IMG/VR virus record: IMGVR_UViG_3300032242_001451
Location: 1-40,686 of that record
Source: a virus
Length of the DNA: 40,686 nucleotides
Reading direction: 5' to 3' (one strand)
Within the stretch, counting starts at the first letter, position 1. Every line of letters begins with the position of its first letter. Below the pieces are notes generated by a model. It was not told the origin of the DNA and made no database searches. It worked only from the letters and a program-made list of their open reading frames with translations. Below, one piece after another: positions 13,703 through 37,359 of this stretch. A program made the position numbers and the translations under genes.

Positions 13703-13810
13703 TTGACTCATTACGAGGGCGAGTTAGACCTCACCCACTTCCCAGCCAAGAGAATTGTAACACACAAACAGAAAGACCGCCACCTTATCGGTGACGGCCT
13801 AACTATTTAA
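13703..13810 (+). CDS. Possible 35-residue protein with TTG start
   Basis: A frame starting at TTG two bases after the WhiB stop reads L-T-H-Y-E-G-E-L-D-L-T-H-F-P-A-K and ends at TAA 13810. AGGGA precedes the TTG by about nine bases. The frame spans the predicted terminator hairpin at 13774-13800, which argues against it. It is listed as a possibility only. Confidence 0.25.
   Translation: MTHYEGELDLTHFPAKRIVTHKQKDRHLIGDGLTI
13774..13800. terminator. Hairpin between convergent operons
   Basis: CCGCCACC (13777-13784) and GGTGACGG (13790-13797) form a stem with one mismatch and a five-base loop, extended by flanking A/T pairs. It lies between the last rightward gene and the last leftward gene, where a bidirectional terminator is expected. 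The U-tract is weak on both strands. Confidence 0.5.
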
Positions 13811-15852: not shown

Positions 15853-15909
15853 GATTTCCCTTTTCTCTCTTTGCCTGTCTCATCAGTACGGGGAGGCAAT
15901 CCCCCGCAG

Positions 15910-15923
15910 AGCCCCTAAGGGCT
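15910..15923 (-). other. Repeated intergenic hairpin, copy 3
   Basis: AGCCC-CTAA-GGGCT-like stem (GCCC 15911-15914, GGGC 15919-15922, flanked by A/T) right after the gene at 15931-16179. A second hairpin (CCCCG/CGGGG) lies in the same gap between here and 15852. Confidence 0.5.
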
Positions 15924-15930
15924 TTCGACA

Positions 15931-16179
15931 TCAAATCTTGCGTAGGCTTGCTTTCATTGCCCTAGTGATTACATCATTTTTGAAGAATTGCCAGCCACAG
16001 CCCTCATCTTCGTCATCATCAGGCTCAAAAGAGGAAAGAAACTCACCAGTGAACAAACTACCGTCCTTGCCTGCTGTTCTGATTTCGTAGTGAATCCGCC
16101 CCGCCTCATCTTCAACAATGTCCACGCTAAACGAACCTGCTTTTGCTGGCTCGCAATCGAACTTGTCTAGTCTAATCAT
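15931..16179 (-). CDS. 82-residue acidic protein, first gene of the leftward operon
   Basis: The product MIRLDKFDCEPAKAGSFSVD has beta-strand patterns (GRIHYEIRTAGKDGSLF), an acidic run (FEPDDDEDEGCGW) and a short helical basic tail (ITRAMKASLRKI). AAGGGAG precedes the ATG. As the first gene after the divergent promoter it is likely among the first proteins made. The target is unknown. Confidence 0.55.
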   Translation of the reverse strand: MIRLDKFDCEPAKAGSFSVDIVEDEAGRIHYEIRTAGKDGSLFTGEFLSSFEPDDDEDEGCGWQFFKNDVITRAMKASLRKI

Positions 16180-16223
16180 CTTGTGTCTCCCTTGTAACTC
16201 TCAGGTGTTTCCCTGATAACTAC

Positions 16224-16252
16224 ACATTACACCCCTACCCTACCCCTGTCAA
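16224..16252 (-). promoter_or_regulatory. Probable leftward promoter P1
   Basis: On the minus strand TTGACA (16252-16247), a 17-base G-rich spacer and TAATGT (16229-16224), preceded by GTG. It would start RNA near 16217, about 40 bases before the gene at 16179. Confidence 0.6.
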
Positions 16253-16266
16253 GTATAGTGACACCT

Positions 16267-16293
16267 GAAAGGCCTAGTGTTTATTGGGCTTTC
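16267..16293 (-). other. Repeated intergenic hairpin, copy 4 (imperfect)
   Basis: GAAAGGCC and GGGCTTTC pair with one mismatch around an 11-base loop. Like copy 2 it lies directly upstream of a TTGACA promoter in the leftward sense. Confidence 0.4.
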
Positions 16294-16320
16294 AAATTGT
16301 AACATAACTGTAACATTGTT

Positions 16321-16338
16321 GTGAATGTGTGCACAAGC
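16321..16338. promoter_or_regulatory. Operator-like site, left copy
   Basis: GTGAATGTGTGCACAAGC matches 17006-17023 at 16 of 18 bases. It has GTG...CAC dyad symmetry. It lies about 70 bases upstream of the leftward -35 box. Confidence 0.45.
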
Positions 16339-16370
16339 GAGGGGCAATAGTTCAGGGCTTGGCAGTCAGG

Positions 16371-16405
16371 CAGTGAGAGTGCTAATCAGTGAGAGAGTGA
16401 GAGTG
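16371..16405 (+). repeat. GA-rich direct repeats (possible iterons)
   Basis: AGTGAGAG occurs three times within 35 bases, with AGTGAGAGTG exact at 16372 and 16396. No frame uses the region. Short spaced direct repeats in a control region are typical of initiator-binding iterons, but three copies are few. Confidence 0.35.
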
Positions 16406-17005
16406 TGTCAGGGCAATGCTCACACTAACCACACCCCCATTACATAGAAAGGAACGCTTTTACTTACATACGGACAGGCTCACGAATGACCGGCTGTCTG
16501 CCGAGGGCACCTCAAATAATTGATTGCATATCTCAACAACGGTAAACTGTCATTCTCATCAGGGTTTTAACCAATTCAACCAGGCTAAAAACGACGCTAT
16601 ACAAATCTTCCTAATAGTAAAAATGTCTACCCTCTACACGCTCTCATTTTCTTTGCAGGATACCTGTTAAAACCACTATCTTTTAACGTCTCACTTAGTT
16701 ACAGGTTGCCCCGCATCACCAACACAAAAAAAGCAGAGAAGTGCTCTATAAATATTTGTGTGACATCCATCCCGTCGTGAACACGAGGCTCGTCTGTGGC
16801 AGAGTTCTCTTGCCTTGACTGTTTACCTAAGAGCATAATGTGCTGCCTCTTACGTACGTGTTCGACCCAATCCTGCTCTAACCAGGTAACTACCGCTAGT
16901 ATCCCAGAGGGACTAACACTCGGCGGGGACTTGCACCCACGAACGCTCTCATCGGCGCTGTTATAAGGATACCATGCATAGAGCACTGTGTGACGTAACT
17001 TGTAT

Positions 17006-17023
17006 GTGAATGTTTTCACAAGC
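17006..17023. promoter_or_regulatory. Operator-like site, right copy
   Basis: GTGAATGTTTTCACAAGC contains the perfect dyad GTGAA-N4-TTCAC and ends seven bases before the -35 box at 17031. The match to the copy at 16321 suggests a common regulator on both promoters. Confidence 0.5.
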
Positions 17024-17030
17024 CAGGTGC

Positions 17031-17059
17031 TTGACAGGTGTATACGAGGTGTGTATAGT
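17031..17059 (+). promoter_or_regulatory. Strong rightward promoter
   Basis: TTGACA (17031-17036), a 17-base spacer and TATAGT (17054-17059) make a near-consensus primary-sigma promoter. It is the best promoter seen in the window and points towards the terminase operon. Its first product is the short unit ending in the terminator at 17110-17144. Confidence 0.8.
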
Positions 17060-17065
17060 TCTGAG

Positions 17066-17144
17066 TGGGCACTGTCCCATTAGTAACTTCCGACACTAAA
17101 AGGTAGAAAGTCCGGCACCGTAGGGATATGGGGTCGGGCTTTTT
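17066..17144 (+). ncRNA. Candidate short leader RNA or small RNA
   Basis: The strong promoter should start near 17066, and a terminator ends at about 17144, giving an RNA of about 80 bases with no reading frame of note. A segment CCGAC (17090-17094) can pair with GTCGG inside the terminator's 3' arm, which would open the terminator. That is the layout of an attenuator or riboswitch, but no known family was recognised. A constitutive small RNA is the alternative. Confidence 0.45.
17110..17144 (+). terminator. Intrinsic terminator in the leader
   Basis: GTCCGGCACC (17110-17119) pairs with GGGGTCGGGC (17130-17139) with one mismatch and two G-U pairs, then TTTTT at 17140-17144. It is the clearest intrinsic terminator in the window. 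Confidence 0.75.
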
Positions 17145-17153
17145 GCTTTGTGC

Positions 17154-17165
17154 TACAATCTAGGT
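17154..17165 (+). promoter_or_regulatory. Leaderless promoter (TGC-TACAAT-N6-ATG)
   Basis: TACAAT at 17154-17159, preceded by TGC (extended -10), lies six bases before the ATG at 17166, so RNA would start at or next to the A of the start codon. No ribosome site precedes the gene. Confidence 0.5.
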
Positions 17166-17291
17166 ATGCCACTAAAAAAAGGTAAATCCAAAAAGACCAT
17201 TAGCCAGAACATTCGCACGGAAATGGCAGCCGGTAAGCCCCAGCGTCAAGCCGTTGCTATCGCCCTTTCTACGGCAAAGAAGAAGAAGTAA
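17166..17291 (+). CDS. 41-residue basic protein, DUF6496-like
   Basis: MPLKKGKSKKTISQNIRTEM continues AAGKPQRQAVAIALSTAKKK. This Lys-rich helix with K-P-x-x-Q-A-V-A-I-A-L is a widespread phage microprotein pattern (DUF6496-like), often next to the terminase. The charge suggests nucleic-acid binding. It ends in a TAATG overlap with the next gene. Confidence 0.7.
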   Translation: MPLKKGKSKKTISQNIRTEMAAGKPQRQAVAIALSTAKKKK

Positions 17292-17407
17292 TGTGCGCTA
17301 CATGTGGCTGTGGTCGTCCCAAGGATAAGCACGGCGAAAAGACTCTGGCTGCTGCTAACAAAAAGTATGCACCCAAGCCAAAGGCTAAGACTCGTAAAAA
17401 GAAGTAA
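17291..17407 (+). CDS. 38-residue Cys-rich basic protein
   Basis: MCATCGCGRPKDKHGEKTLA has Cys2, Cys5, Cys7 and His14, a possible single zinc site, followed by a Lys-rich tail ending in TRKKK. Both ends overlap at TAATG. Such short proteins occur beside the previous one in other phages. Function is unknown. Confidence 0.6.
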   Translation: MCATCGCGRPKDKHGEKTLAAANKKYAPKPKAKTRKKK

Positions 17408-17559
17408 TGAAAATTTGGCGAAAGTCAGTCAAGAGTGCGGACCCCGCTTCTTGGCTTTTTGATTCTAAGTACAGACGTAAGGTACGCCGCAAACGCCGTG
17501 GTATCAAACTCACAGTTAACGGCCAGCCCTACGAAGCATGGTATGAGGACCAGTCGTAG
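17407..17559 (+). CDS. 50-residue highly basic protein
   Basis: MKIWRKSVKSADPASWLFDS is followed by KYRRKVRRKRRGIKLTVNGQ and a short acidic end. The Arg/Lys cluster predicts DNA or RNA binding. It overlaps the previous gene at TAATG and is followed by a terminator-like hairpin. Confidence 0.6.
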   Translation: MKIWRKSVKSADPASWLFDSKYRRKVRRKRRGIKLTVNGQPYEAWYEDQS

Positions 17560-17566
17560 AGCAGGT

Positions 17567-17600
17567 TTTGCACCTTGGTGCGAATTTTAAAATTTTTTTT
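17567..17600 (+). terminator. Terminator-like hairpin with T-run
   Basis: GCACC-TT-GGTGC, extended by T/A pairs, spans 17567-17584, followed by TTTTAAAA and eight T at 17593-17600. It separates the microprotein trio from the structural operon. Confidence 0.55.
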
Positions 17601-17630
17601 GGTCCAACGTTTCAATACGCTATGTAGTGC

Positions 17631-17642
17631 TACACTTATAAC
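17631..17642 (+). promoter_or_regulatory. Leaderless promoter (TGC-TACACT-N6-ATG)
   Basis: TACACT at 17631-17636, preceded by TGC, lies six bases before ATG 17643. The arrangement copies that at 17154. It would start the structural operon just after the terminator. Confidence 0.5.
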
Positions 17643-17909
17643 ATGAAGAAAAACATAGCCCCACACATTACAGCACTACTCGCAGGAGCCGGTGCTGTTC
17701 TATCCGTAGTACACCCAGGCTTTAATATACCTGCAGGTGTTCAAGGAGTTGTTGCATCTATTTGCGTATTGTCGTCTACTATTACTGAAGTGGTTCACTT
17801 TGTAAAGAAGCACAATTTTCAAAGCAACTTAGTCCTTGCTAGCCACCTTGCAACACAAGTTGCTGCTAATGCACAAGCAGATATTGCACCTACACCACCT
17901 GCTGCGTAA
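17643..17909 (+). CDS. 88-residue membrane protein
   Basis: Two hydrophobic segments (ITALLAGAGAVLSVV at about 8-24 and GVQGVVASICVLSSTITEVV at about 32-51) are followed by a charged stretch (HFVKKHNF) and an Ala/Gln/Pro-rich end. It resembles small phage holins, but lies beside the terminase, not in the lysis group. It overlaps the next gene at TAATG. It could be a second holin or a packaging-associated membrane protein. Confidence 0.5.
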   Translation: MKKNIAPHITALLAGAGAVLSVVHPGFNIPAGVQGVVASICVLSSTITEVVHFVKKHNFQSNLVLASHLATQVAANAQADIAPTPPAA

Positions 17910-34349: not shown

Positions 34350-34684
34350 CCGCAACACCACACAACGTTGGACTACACCCAGAGGATTGCTTTGGGTGCA
34401 AGGCTGCGTCTATCAGCATGTCACCATCTGCCATGCCTACACGCTCCAACGCTGGTGTTATTAACATGGACACGAAAGCAATGCACGCAGACGTGGCCGC
34501 TTACAAGCGACTACGCAAAGATGGAACACAGCCCAAGTCGGTAAAGGGTGCGGCGGCTTTAGAGTCCCGTGCTGTATCGAAGTGGGAGATTGAAACAGGA
34601 ACAACGCTCAAGGGTGACACCAAGTTGGGCAAACGATTAGACGAAACTCAAGGCGCTATCAATAGGGGCGAATCAGTACTATGA
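34346..34684 (+). CDS. 112-residue head-region protein with Cys pair
   Basis: MTATPHNVGLHPEDCFGCKA has Cys15-x2-Cys18 preceded by His, a possible metal site, then a polar helical second half (KRLRKDGTQPKSVKGAAALE). It overlaps neighbours at ATGA on both ends. Similar proteins occur next to head-completion genes in actinophages. Function is unknown. Confidence 0.5.
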   Translation: MTATPHNVGLHPEDCFGCKAASISMSPSAMPTRSNAGVINMDTKAMHADVAAYKRLRKDGTQPKSVKGAAALESRAVSKWEIETGTTLKGDTKLGKRLDETQGAINRGESVL

Positions 34685-37359
34685 CAACTTACTTACTTTC
34701 TGGAGTCGTTTCAGGACCTTCTGGGTTTCTTAACGGTGCTTCTGTCACAGCGTACGATGAGTCACTATTTACCAACGCACCAGCCGCAGGTGACGCACCA
34801 CCAGCCGCAGCTGTTCTAGGCACTAACGCATTTAACACTGACGCTAACGGTCAGGTTGTTCTATCAGGTACCGAGTACGGTGGTAACGGTCAGTGGCAGA
34901 TTCAAGTAGGTAGCAACCACGGTTACTACATTGGAGTTCTTTACCCAGTAGGTTCTACAACTGCTCAGTACTACTGGTCATACGACGACTCACTTATTCA
35001 AAGCCGTGGTCTACAGGGATACCAGGGTTTTCAAGGTAGTCAGGGTTTCCAAGGATTTAACGGTGTACAAGGTACGACTGGCGTTCAAGGTCCCCAGGGA
35101 TACCAAGGTCTTACTGGGCCACAGGGCACACAAGGCCGTCAAGGTTTTCAGGGTGTACAAGGTGGAGCAGGAGTACAAGGTTCAACAGGTGCTACTGGAC
35201 CTCAAGGAGTTCAGGGTGTCACTGGCGCACAAGGCGTACAGGGAACTCAGGGCGTTCAAGGTGTTCAGGGATACCAGGGCACACAGGGTGTACAGGGAAT
35301 TACAGGCTCTACAGGTTCGCAGGGATACCAGGGTAACACTGGTAATACTGGTGTACAGGGTGCACAGGGTGTACAGGGCAACACTGGTGTACAGGGTGCA
35401 CAGGGATATCAAGGTCTAACTGGAGCACAAGGTGTTCAGGGGACTCAGGGTAACCAAGGCTTTCAGGGTGTCGGAGTTCAAGGCGCAACCGGAGCACAGG
35501 GTGTACAAGGTGCACAAGGCAATCAAGGTTTTCAAGGTAGTACAGGAACTACCGGCTCGCAGGGTTCTACCGGTTCACAAGGTGTTCAGGGTAATCAAGG
35601 ATTTCAGGGCTTTCAGGGGAATCAGGGATACCAGGGTTCAACAGGTTCACAAGGTATTCAAGGTACACAAGGCAACCAGGGATACCAAGGGTATCAGGGT
35701 TACCAGGGTAACGTCGGTGCTCAAGGCCCTGGTGGTACTAACGCCATTTACGGTTCGTTCTATGACACAACAACACAGAGCAACGGTGGTGCTACTACAG
35801 CCAACGTCGTTGCATGCAACACACTTGAAACTGAGTTTGGTGTAAACGTTGCTTACGGCAACCAGTTTGTTGTTTCATACGCAGGTACATACCTTATTGA
35901 GTTCTTGGGTCAGTTCACACGCTCAGGCGGTGGTTCAAGTACTGTAAACCTTTGGCTTTCAAAGAACGGTTCCGCATTAACACAGACAAACATTGTCTTT
36001 ACATTCAGCGGTACAGGTACTCAAGCACAACAAGACACATACCTATTCCCACTTGCCGCTAATGACTACGTTCAGTTCTACTGGTCATCATCTGACACAA
36101 GCGTAGCGTTATCTCCAGTTGCCGCTGGTTCTTCACCAACACGCCCAGCCACACCATCGGTCAACGTCAACATCTCAATGGTTGCCTCATCTGGTGCTAC
36201 CGGAGCCCAGGGTTCTACTGGACCACAGGGTGTCCAGGGATACCAAGGCGTACAAGGCTTCCAGGGTTTCCAAGGCGTTACTGGTGCTCAAGGAGTACAA
36301 GGTTTCCAGGGCACACAGGGCACACAAGGTAATCAAGGATTCCAAGGTGTAACTGGCGCACAGGGTGTTCAAGGTTCTACAGGTACCACTGGTGCTCAGG
36401 GTTACCAAGGTAATCAAGGATTCCAAGGGTACCAAGGACCAACAGGTTCTACGGGTTCTCAAGGTGTGCAGGGTACACAGGGCAACCAAGGATTCCAGGG
36501 CTCACAGGGCGCTACAGGTGCCACAGGAAGCCAAGGAGCAACAGGTTCTCAGGGTGTACAGGGTGCACAGGGAGCAGCCGGAACTAACGGTGCTCAGGGT
36601 TCACAAGGTTCAACTGGAACGACTGGTGCTCAGGGAGCGACTGGTTCACAGGGCTCACAGGGTTTCCAGGGTTACCAAGGTACTGCCGGTACTAACGGAA
36701 CTAACGGAGCGCAAGGTTCTACCGGTGCTCAGGGTTCTACCGGAGCCACTGGTTCACAAGGGGCACAAGGCTTCCAGGGTGTAACAGGTAGCCAGGGTTC
36801 ACAAGGAACTCAGGGTACAACAGGTAGCCAGGGTGCCACAGGTACGCAGGGTAACCAGGGTTATCAAGGATACCAGGGATACCAGGGTAATGCCGGTTCT
36901 CAAGGTTCACAGGGTTACTCAGCCGCTACTACCAACGTAGTTCTTACTGCGCCATTTGAAACAGTAAGCAGTTCTGCAACGGCACTTAGTGGTTCTACTG
37001 CTGCGGCACTCAATGCTGCAACGTCGTCGTTCTTTAACTACACGGCTAACCCGACTGCTAACTGGGCTACTAACATCACCAATGCCCCAACCACAACTGG
37101 TCAATCAGTGACGTTTGCCATGTTGGTCAACAGTGGTTCTACAGCGTACATTCCAGCCAGCATTTCTATTAACGGTACGGCTGCTGCTGCATCAGGACTT
37201 CCTGCTAACGGCTCAACGTACAACAGCATTACGACATGGTGGCAGGGTGGTACAGCACCAACATCGGGTGACGCTTCAACTATTGACGCTTACACCTTTA
37301 CGGTTATCTGCACCGGCTCAAGCACCTGGACACTTCTAGTAGCACAAACGAAGTACTAA
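34681..37359 (+). CDS. Collagen-like fibre with a central TNF/C1q-like domain
   Basis: The 892-residue protein has five parts. Residues 1-108 form a beta-rich attachment domain (STTAQYYWSYDDSLIQSRG). Residues about 110-351 and 505-745 are two Gly-x-y collagen-like rods, with Gln dominant in the third position (GVQG, GFQG, GYQG, GNQG), few prolines, and one irregularity (GVGVQG). Between them (about 352-503) is a jelly-roll-like domain with VVSYAGTYLIEFLGQFTRSG and YLFPLAANDYVQFYWSSSD, like TNF/C1q trimers. The last 147 residues are a beta domain. The rods must trimerise. It is probably a capsid or tail fibre for host binding. The attachment site is unknown. Confidence 0.85.
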   Translation: MTTYLLSGVVSGPSGFLNGASVTAYDESLFTNAPAAGDAPPAAAVLGTNAFNTDANGQVVLSGTEYGGNGQWQIQVGSNHGYYIGVLYPVGSTTAQYYWSYDDSLIQSRGLQGYQGFQGSQGFQGFNGVQGTTGVQGPQGYQGLTGPQGTQGRQGFQGVQGGAGVQGSTGATGPQGVQGVTGAQGVQGTQGVQGVQGYQGTQGVQGITGSTGSQGYQGNTGNTGVQGAQGVQGNTGVQGAQGYQGLTGAQGVQGTQGNQGFQGVGVQGATGAQGVQGAQGNQGFQGSTGTTGSQGSTGSQGVQGNQGFQGFQGNQGYQGSTGSQGIQGTQGNQGYQGYQGYQGNVGAQGPGGTNAIYGSFYDTTTQSNGGATTANVVACNTLETEFGVNVAYGNQFVVSYAGTYLIEFLGQFTRSGGGSSTVNLWLSKNGSALTQTNIVFTFSGTGTQAQQDTYLFPLAANDYVQFYWSSSDTSVALSPVAAGSSPTRPATPSVNVNISMVASSGATGAQGSTGPQGVQGYQGVQGFQGFQGVTGAQGVQGFQGTQGTQGNQGFQGVTGAQGVQGSTGTTGAQGYQGNQGFQGYQGPTGSTGSQGVQGTQGNQGFQGSQGATGATGSQGATGSQGVQGAQGAAGTNGAQGSQGSTGTTGAQGATGSQGSQGFQGYQGTAGTNGTNGAQGSTGAQGSTGATGSQGAQGFQGVTGSQGSQGTQGTTGSQGATGTQGNQGYQGYQGYQGNAGSQGSQGYSAATTNVVLTAPFETVSSSATALSGSTAAALNAATSSFFNYTANPTANWATNITNAPTTTGQSVTFAMLVNSGSTAYIPASISINGTAAAASGLPANGSTYNSITTWWQGGTAPTSGDASTIDAYTFTVICTGSSTWTLLVAQTKY

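Follow-up and report, generated by a model that had tools for sequence, protein, structure and literature searches.

A predicted small RNA gene and a conserved structured RNA in the divergent region before the late operon of an uncultured actinophage

In phage lambda the late promoter pR', the terminator tR' and the 6S RNA form an arrangement to which the locus analyzed here is alike, since both pair a strong promoter with a short RNA stopped by an intrinsic terminator ahead of the late operon. They differ in that here the late operon has a promoter-like leaderless start of its own, the cassette is an optional one and a search of part of the proteins gave no Q-like factor. Phage-encoded small RNAs act on host or phage mRNAs, and the RNA predicted here shares with them a promoter of its own, hairpins, a loop-presented or single-stranded seed and a terminator serving as 3' end. 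In contrast to them, it has no match to a known family in Rfam, and action on a target is only proposed for it. Little is known of small RNAs in actinobacterial phages; the present one has a clear anatomy and an invariant 8-base loop.

On the opposite strand the same region carries a larger structured element. Few large structured RNAs have been described from phages, with functions that are mostly unsettled, and the minus-strand RNA fits no Rfam family. GOLLD and ROOL, which are large ornate structured non-coding RNAs, offer a possible parallel; Rfam matches to either, or to any family of that sort, were absent from 13 relatives and from the window (the whole stretch of DNA analyzed, 40,686 nucleotides). 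By analogy, the nearest functional parallel that we found for the minus-strand RNA is an abundant non-coding transcript of about 500 nt that mycobacteriophages L5, D29 and StarStuff make from their early promoter Pleft (PMC5712189). According to the same text, the Pleft RNA of L5 and D29 is toxic and comes from a region without conserved open frames (PMC5712189). In its actinophage origin, its strong leftward early promoter and its lack of conserved open frames the Pleft RNA is comparable with the minus-strand RNA. The Pleft RNA differs in lying at the genome end and in that the accessible text reports no conserved structure for it (PMC5712189); the two are likened by description and no homology is claimed. 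The Pleft RNA is no parallel to the 80-nt plus-strand RNA.

The window is a 40.7-kb virus record, and its source virus is an uncultured freshwater actinophage that occurs, as far as the collections show, in metagenomes only. The region is flanked on its left side by WhiB-like, ERF, SSB and RusA genes and on its right side by terminase, capsid and further structural genes. Late genes run rightward from 17166 and leftward genes from 16179, with about 1 kb between them free of long conserved frames. Related DNA among 50,697 phage records was limited to short chance matches, the terminase showed only distant likeness to those of Streptomyces and Microbacterium phages, and a host sought in genome contigs by pattern scan and terminase scan gave no match. 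We collected 80 relatives via the large terminase and further ones via the RNA patterns, all from one phage group; the 46 distinct sequences that show the region served as the denominator for cassette counts.

The plus-strand RNA is predicted to start from a sigma-70-type promoter (17031-17059, plus strand) with TTGACA at 17031-17036, a spacer of 17 nt and TATAGT at 17054-17059. The initial annotation had called this the best promoter of the genome, and with an 11/12 match it is indeed the top sigma-70 match of the window. Taken alone the match is weak evidence and proves little, since about half of dinucleotide-shuffled windows (48%) contain at least one match of 11/12. The observation was lifted above chance by the relatives, where the order promoter-hairpin-ACTTCCGA-terminator is repeated in 20 of the 46 distinct sequences. 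TTGACA and TATAGT are retained in most relatives with the cassette; L041-L043, L049 and L070 have the -10 only. Between the divergent promoters lies the palindrome TGTGAATGTTTTCACA (17005-17020), which is retained in L001, L004, L009, L012, L015 and L021 and is a possible operator of a phage regulator.

The predicted transcript spans 17065-17144 on the plus strand, its start being placed from the -10 and its end from the U-run, in agreement with the length of about 80 bases first proposed. Its predicted fold scored z = -4.3 against shuffles. On the plus strand it comprises an optional 5' hairpin H1 (GUGGG-CACUGU-CCCAU, 17065-17080), a hairpin H2 with the short stem UUAG/CUAA (17080-17099) whose loop is ACUUCCGA (17086-17093), and an intrinsic terminator (17107-17144). 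The loop reads A[C/U]UUCCGA in 17 of 17 aligned sequences and is mostly unpaired in the fold, as expected of a conserved accessible seed. In the terminator a G+C-rich hairpin (17107-17141, -19.0 kcal/mol) has a U-run directly behind it (TTTTTG, with the U-run at 17140-17144). The terminator is strong, ranking second of 175 candidates by hairpin energy behind one at 13774 on the minus strand. That most stable terminator of the window (13774-13800, minus strand) sits between converging operons. No open reading frame of at least 60 aa was found on the plus strand across 17031-17144, and the segment has, like a small RNA gene, a promoter and a terminator of its own and no coding frame. An Rfam 15 search with the small RNA gave no family at the gathering threshold, in line with the initial annotation; a chance match to mir-2058 reached 18.7 bits against 90. 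The initial observation of a promoter leading into a strong intrinsic terminator was confirmed as a whole, and the suggestion of a possible new regulatory RNA was strengthened, as the RNA recurs, its hairpins survive sequence change and the 8-base loop is nearly invariant.

The cassette consists of the promoter, usually the 5' hairpin, the short hairpin with the invariant loop and a terminator of varying sequence. Of the 46 distinct relatives, 20 have A[C/T]TTCCGA in the interval from the divergent promoter to the first late gene, a count made on the octamer and the late-gene start, and in the 17 aligned sequences the octamer is nearly invariant against variable surroundings. H1 reads GUGGG/CCCAU in the window and GUAGG/CCUAC in relatives (G-C to A-U and G.U to G-C), and is missing from L054, L095 and L127. 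The H2 stem UUAG/CUAA is replaced by CUAG/CUAG in L127 (first pair U-A to C-G) and by UGGA/UCCA in type B, and is weak in type C (L015, L049 and L050). Terminators of two unrelated sequences occur among the relatives, with CCCCCC/GGGGGG in types B and C, which differ from each other by a C-G to U-A pair change. In the covariation check that had been proposed for the small RNA, the hairpins are kept through changed pairs, but independent compensatory (double) changes are few. Because of this, and because the helices were aligned by hand after MAFFT had misaligned H1, hairpin retention across these relatives is good but modest evidence.

The close relatives L012 and L018 have flanks that are 86% and 91% identical, and the site between them measures about 110 bp in L018 and about 33 bp in L012. 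This length difference between alike flanks marks the cassette, on sequence comparison, as an optional unit that comes and goes and can be missing. In L028 and L051 the slot holds another promoter-hairpin-terminator cassette of different sequence, and L062 carries a similar one after the first gene. This second cassette, which likewise resembles a small RNA gene, reads ACTAGGGA..CCC.AA..ATC, followed by CCTC.AC and a terminator. It lies within or beside the slot, approximately at 854-990 in L028, 3422-3550 in L051 and 850-1010 in L062.

The first late gene (17166-17291, plus strand) encodes a 41-aa basic protein (phrog_2423), and its start codon comes directly after an extended -10 (TGC TACAAT, 17151-17159, plus strand). 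In the window the layout is TGC-TACAAT-CTAGGT-ATG, the -10 being six bases upstream of the ATG, and TANNNT-N6-ATG is the arrangement that a leaderless promoter of actinobacteria would be expected to have. It stands behind 20 of 20 cassettes; of the 26 sequences that lack the octamer, up to 18 show a similar layout, and close relatives without the cassette retain this start. The spacing kept in relatives is consistent with a late mRNA that is leaderless and starts from its own promoter just past the terminator.

We consider it fairly probable that 17031-17144 is the gene of a small RNA that acts in trans, and that its terminator serves as an insulator. The sigma-70 promoter would produce a transcript about 80 nt long whose 5' hairpin is optional and whose short hairpin would display ACUUCCGA in its loop. 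The terminator would double as the stable 3' end of the small RNA and would shield the late operon from small-RNA transcription, the operon firing from its own leaderless promoter. Most likely the RNA would act in trans, through a loop that base-pairs with an mRNA or is bound by a protein. UCGGAA[G/A]U is the sequence with which the loop could pair. Neither the window nor the relatives showed an enrichment of TCGGAA sites, and none lay at an obvious phage gene start; the few sites of this type that the window contains run antisense to genes or fall within frames. A host mRNA or a protein is more likely as the partner of the loop than a phage site. Complementarity between the ACUUCCGA loop and the minus-strand RNA was attributed to chance, as it amounts, read off the sequences, to at most 8 bp in L010, fewer elsewhere and none in the window or in type C. 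The natural pairs of phages with and without the cassette, together with the invariant loop, make an effect of the small RNA testable.

The main rival to the small RNA gene, which we regard as unlikely, is antitermination of the lambda pR'-tR' kind, where transcripts from a strong late promoter would stop early at the terminator for as long as no phage protein, which might recognize the ACUUCCGA hairpin of the growing transcript, permits read-through into the structural operon. The geometry fits, with a strong promoter, a small hairpin with an invariant loop and a terminator followed by terminase and structural genes, and a conserved hairpin loop just upstream of the terminator would suit a nut-like site. 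However, the first late gene should need no read-through, as it has a promoter-like leaderless start of its own, and a ribosome site that would serve a read-through mRNA is not evident. Moreover, the operon is kept in close relatives without the cassette, and no Q- or N-like protein was found among the subset of proteins searched. The direct abutment of the terminator on the leaderless promoter would also agree with insulation only, the terminator blocking stray transcripts that run rightward out of the divergent control region and the RNA being a by-product; we hold this to be improbable, as it leaves the dedicated upstream promoter and the invariant ACUUCCGA loop unexplained. The position about 1 kb upstream of the large terminase gene could point to a DNA element, for example a packaging or recombination site, rather than an RNA, a reading made very improbable by the promoter and U-run being fixed in strand and order, by changed pairs that preserve the hairpins and by close relatives without the element.

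Scarcely credible is the riboregulated late-gene attenuator of the initial annotation, in which CCGAC (17090-17094) was to pair with GTCGG (17133-17137) of the terminator 3' arm: the five bases are complementary, but opening of the terminator is practically refuted by energy, the alternative fold being 10 kcal/mol worse (-16.1 vs -26.2 kcal/mol), and by the terminators of relatives, since types B and C keep the loop and have a CCCCCC/GGGGGG terminator without GTCGG, which makes the pairing impossible there. The late operon has a promoter-like start of its own after the terminator and close relatives lack the cassette; one would not expect a late-gene attenuator to be this easily dispensed with, and a small RNA gene is therefore favored.

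The divergent minus-strand RNA is predicted to run leftwards from about 16961, for about 480 nt in the window and 373-607 nt in relatives. Its -10-like element (TATCCT, 16967-16972, minus strand) corresponds to a TANNNT equally spaced from the first hairpin in relatives, 6-7 bases upstream of P1 in nearly all of them, and TTGACA is found 16 nt further upstream in L027 and L028. The 5' domain (16862-16963, minus strand), defined by covariation and the covariance model R1, contains four helices: P1 has 5 bp and the loop CRAUGNGA, P2 has the loop UGNNAGU, P3 is built of two stacked parts and ends in a tip that varies, and P4 has the loop GUUAGAG. Across 38 distinct sequences of this domain 95.7% of cells are paired and 13 of 24 pairs show double changes; doubly changed cells number 119, compared with 42.7 in shuffles and at most 17 in slid controls. 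G.U cells outnumber A.C cells (63 vs 13), which establishes the minus strand as the RNA strand. The covariance model found one copy in the window and matched divergent copies in L052, L055, L060, L062 and L071, which are outside its training set, with E values of 2e-7 or better. Further blocks of the element (16487-16861, minus strand) are conserved in relatives, and they include a hairpin that has a U-rich tip and, as judged by eye, a stem with changes on both sides. RNAalifold applied to the whole element of about 480 nt on a MAFFT alignment performed poorly outside the 5' domain.

Rfam 15 gave no family for the minus-strand RNA in the window and 13 relatives, and the minus strand of 16150-17650 was empty at E<=10. 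A likeness of parts of this RNA to RNase P, a group II intron or a permuted tRNA was unsupported by Rfam, and ARAGORN detected no tRNA or tmRNA despite T-loop-like and D-loop-like pieces. Judged from sequence, the minus-strand RNA has stronger support than the small RNA; expression of both is predicted.

Tentatively, and with more doubt than confidence, we propose that the divergent region may be an RNA control hub, in which a new family of large structured minus-strand RNAs from an early leftward promoter is combined with an exchangeable plus-strand slot for small RNA genes, each with promoter and terminator, before a leaderless late operon. If this were true, the large RNA would add a class to the ornate RNAs, and the slot would be a site at which cassettes for host-acting small RNAs are placed.

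Elsewhere in the window, an 892-aa protein (34681-37359) with long GxQG collagen-like repeats is probably a fibre. A type II hammerhead ribozyme (15869-15930, minus strand), which at 40.8 bits exceeds the Rfam threshold, adjoins the stop of the leftward gene 15931-16179, and a second copy lies at 2873-2934 in L009.
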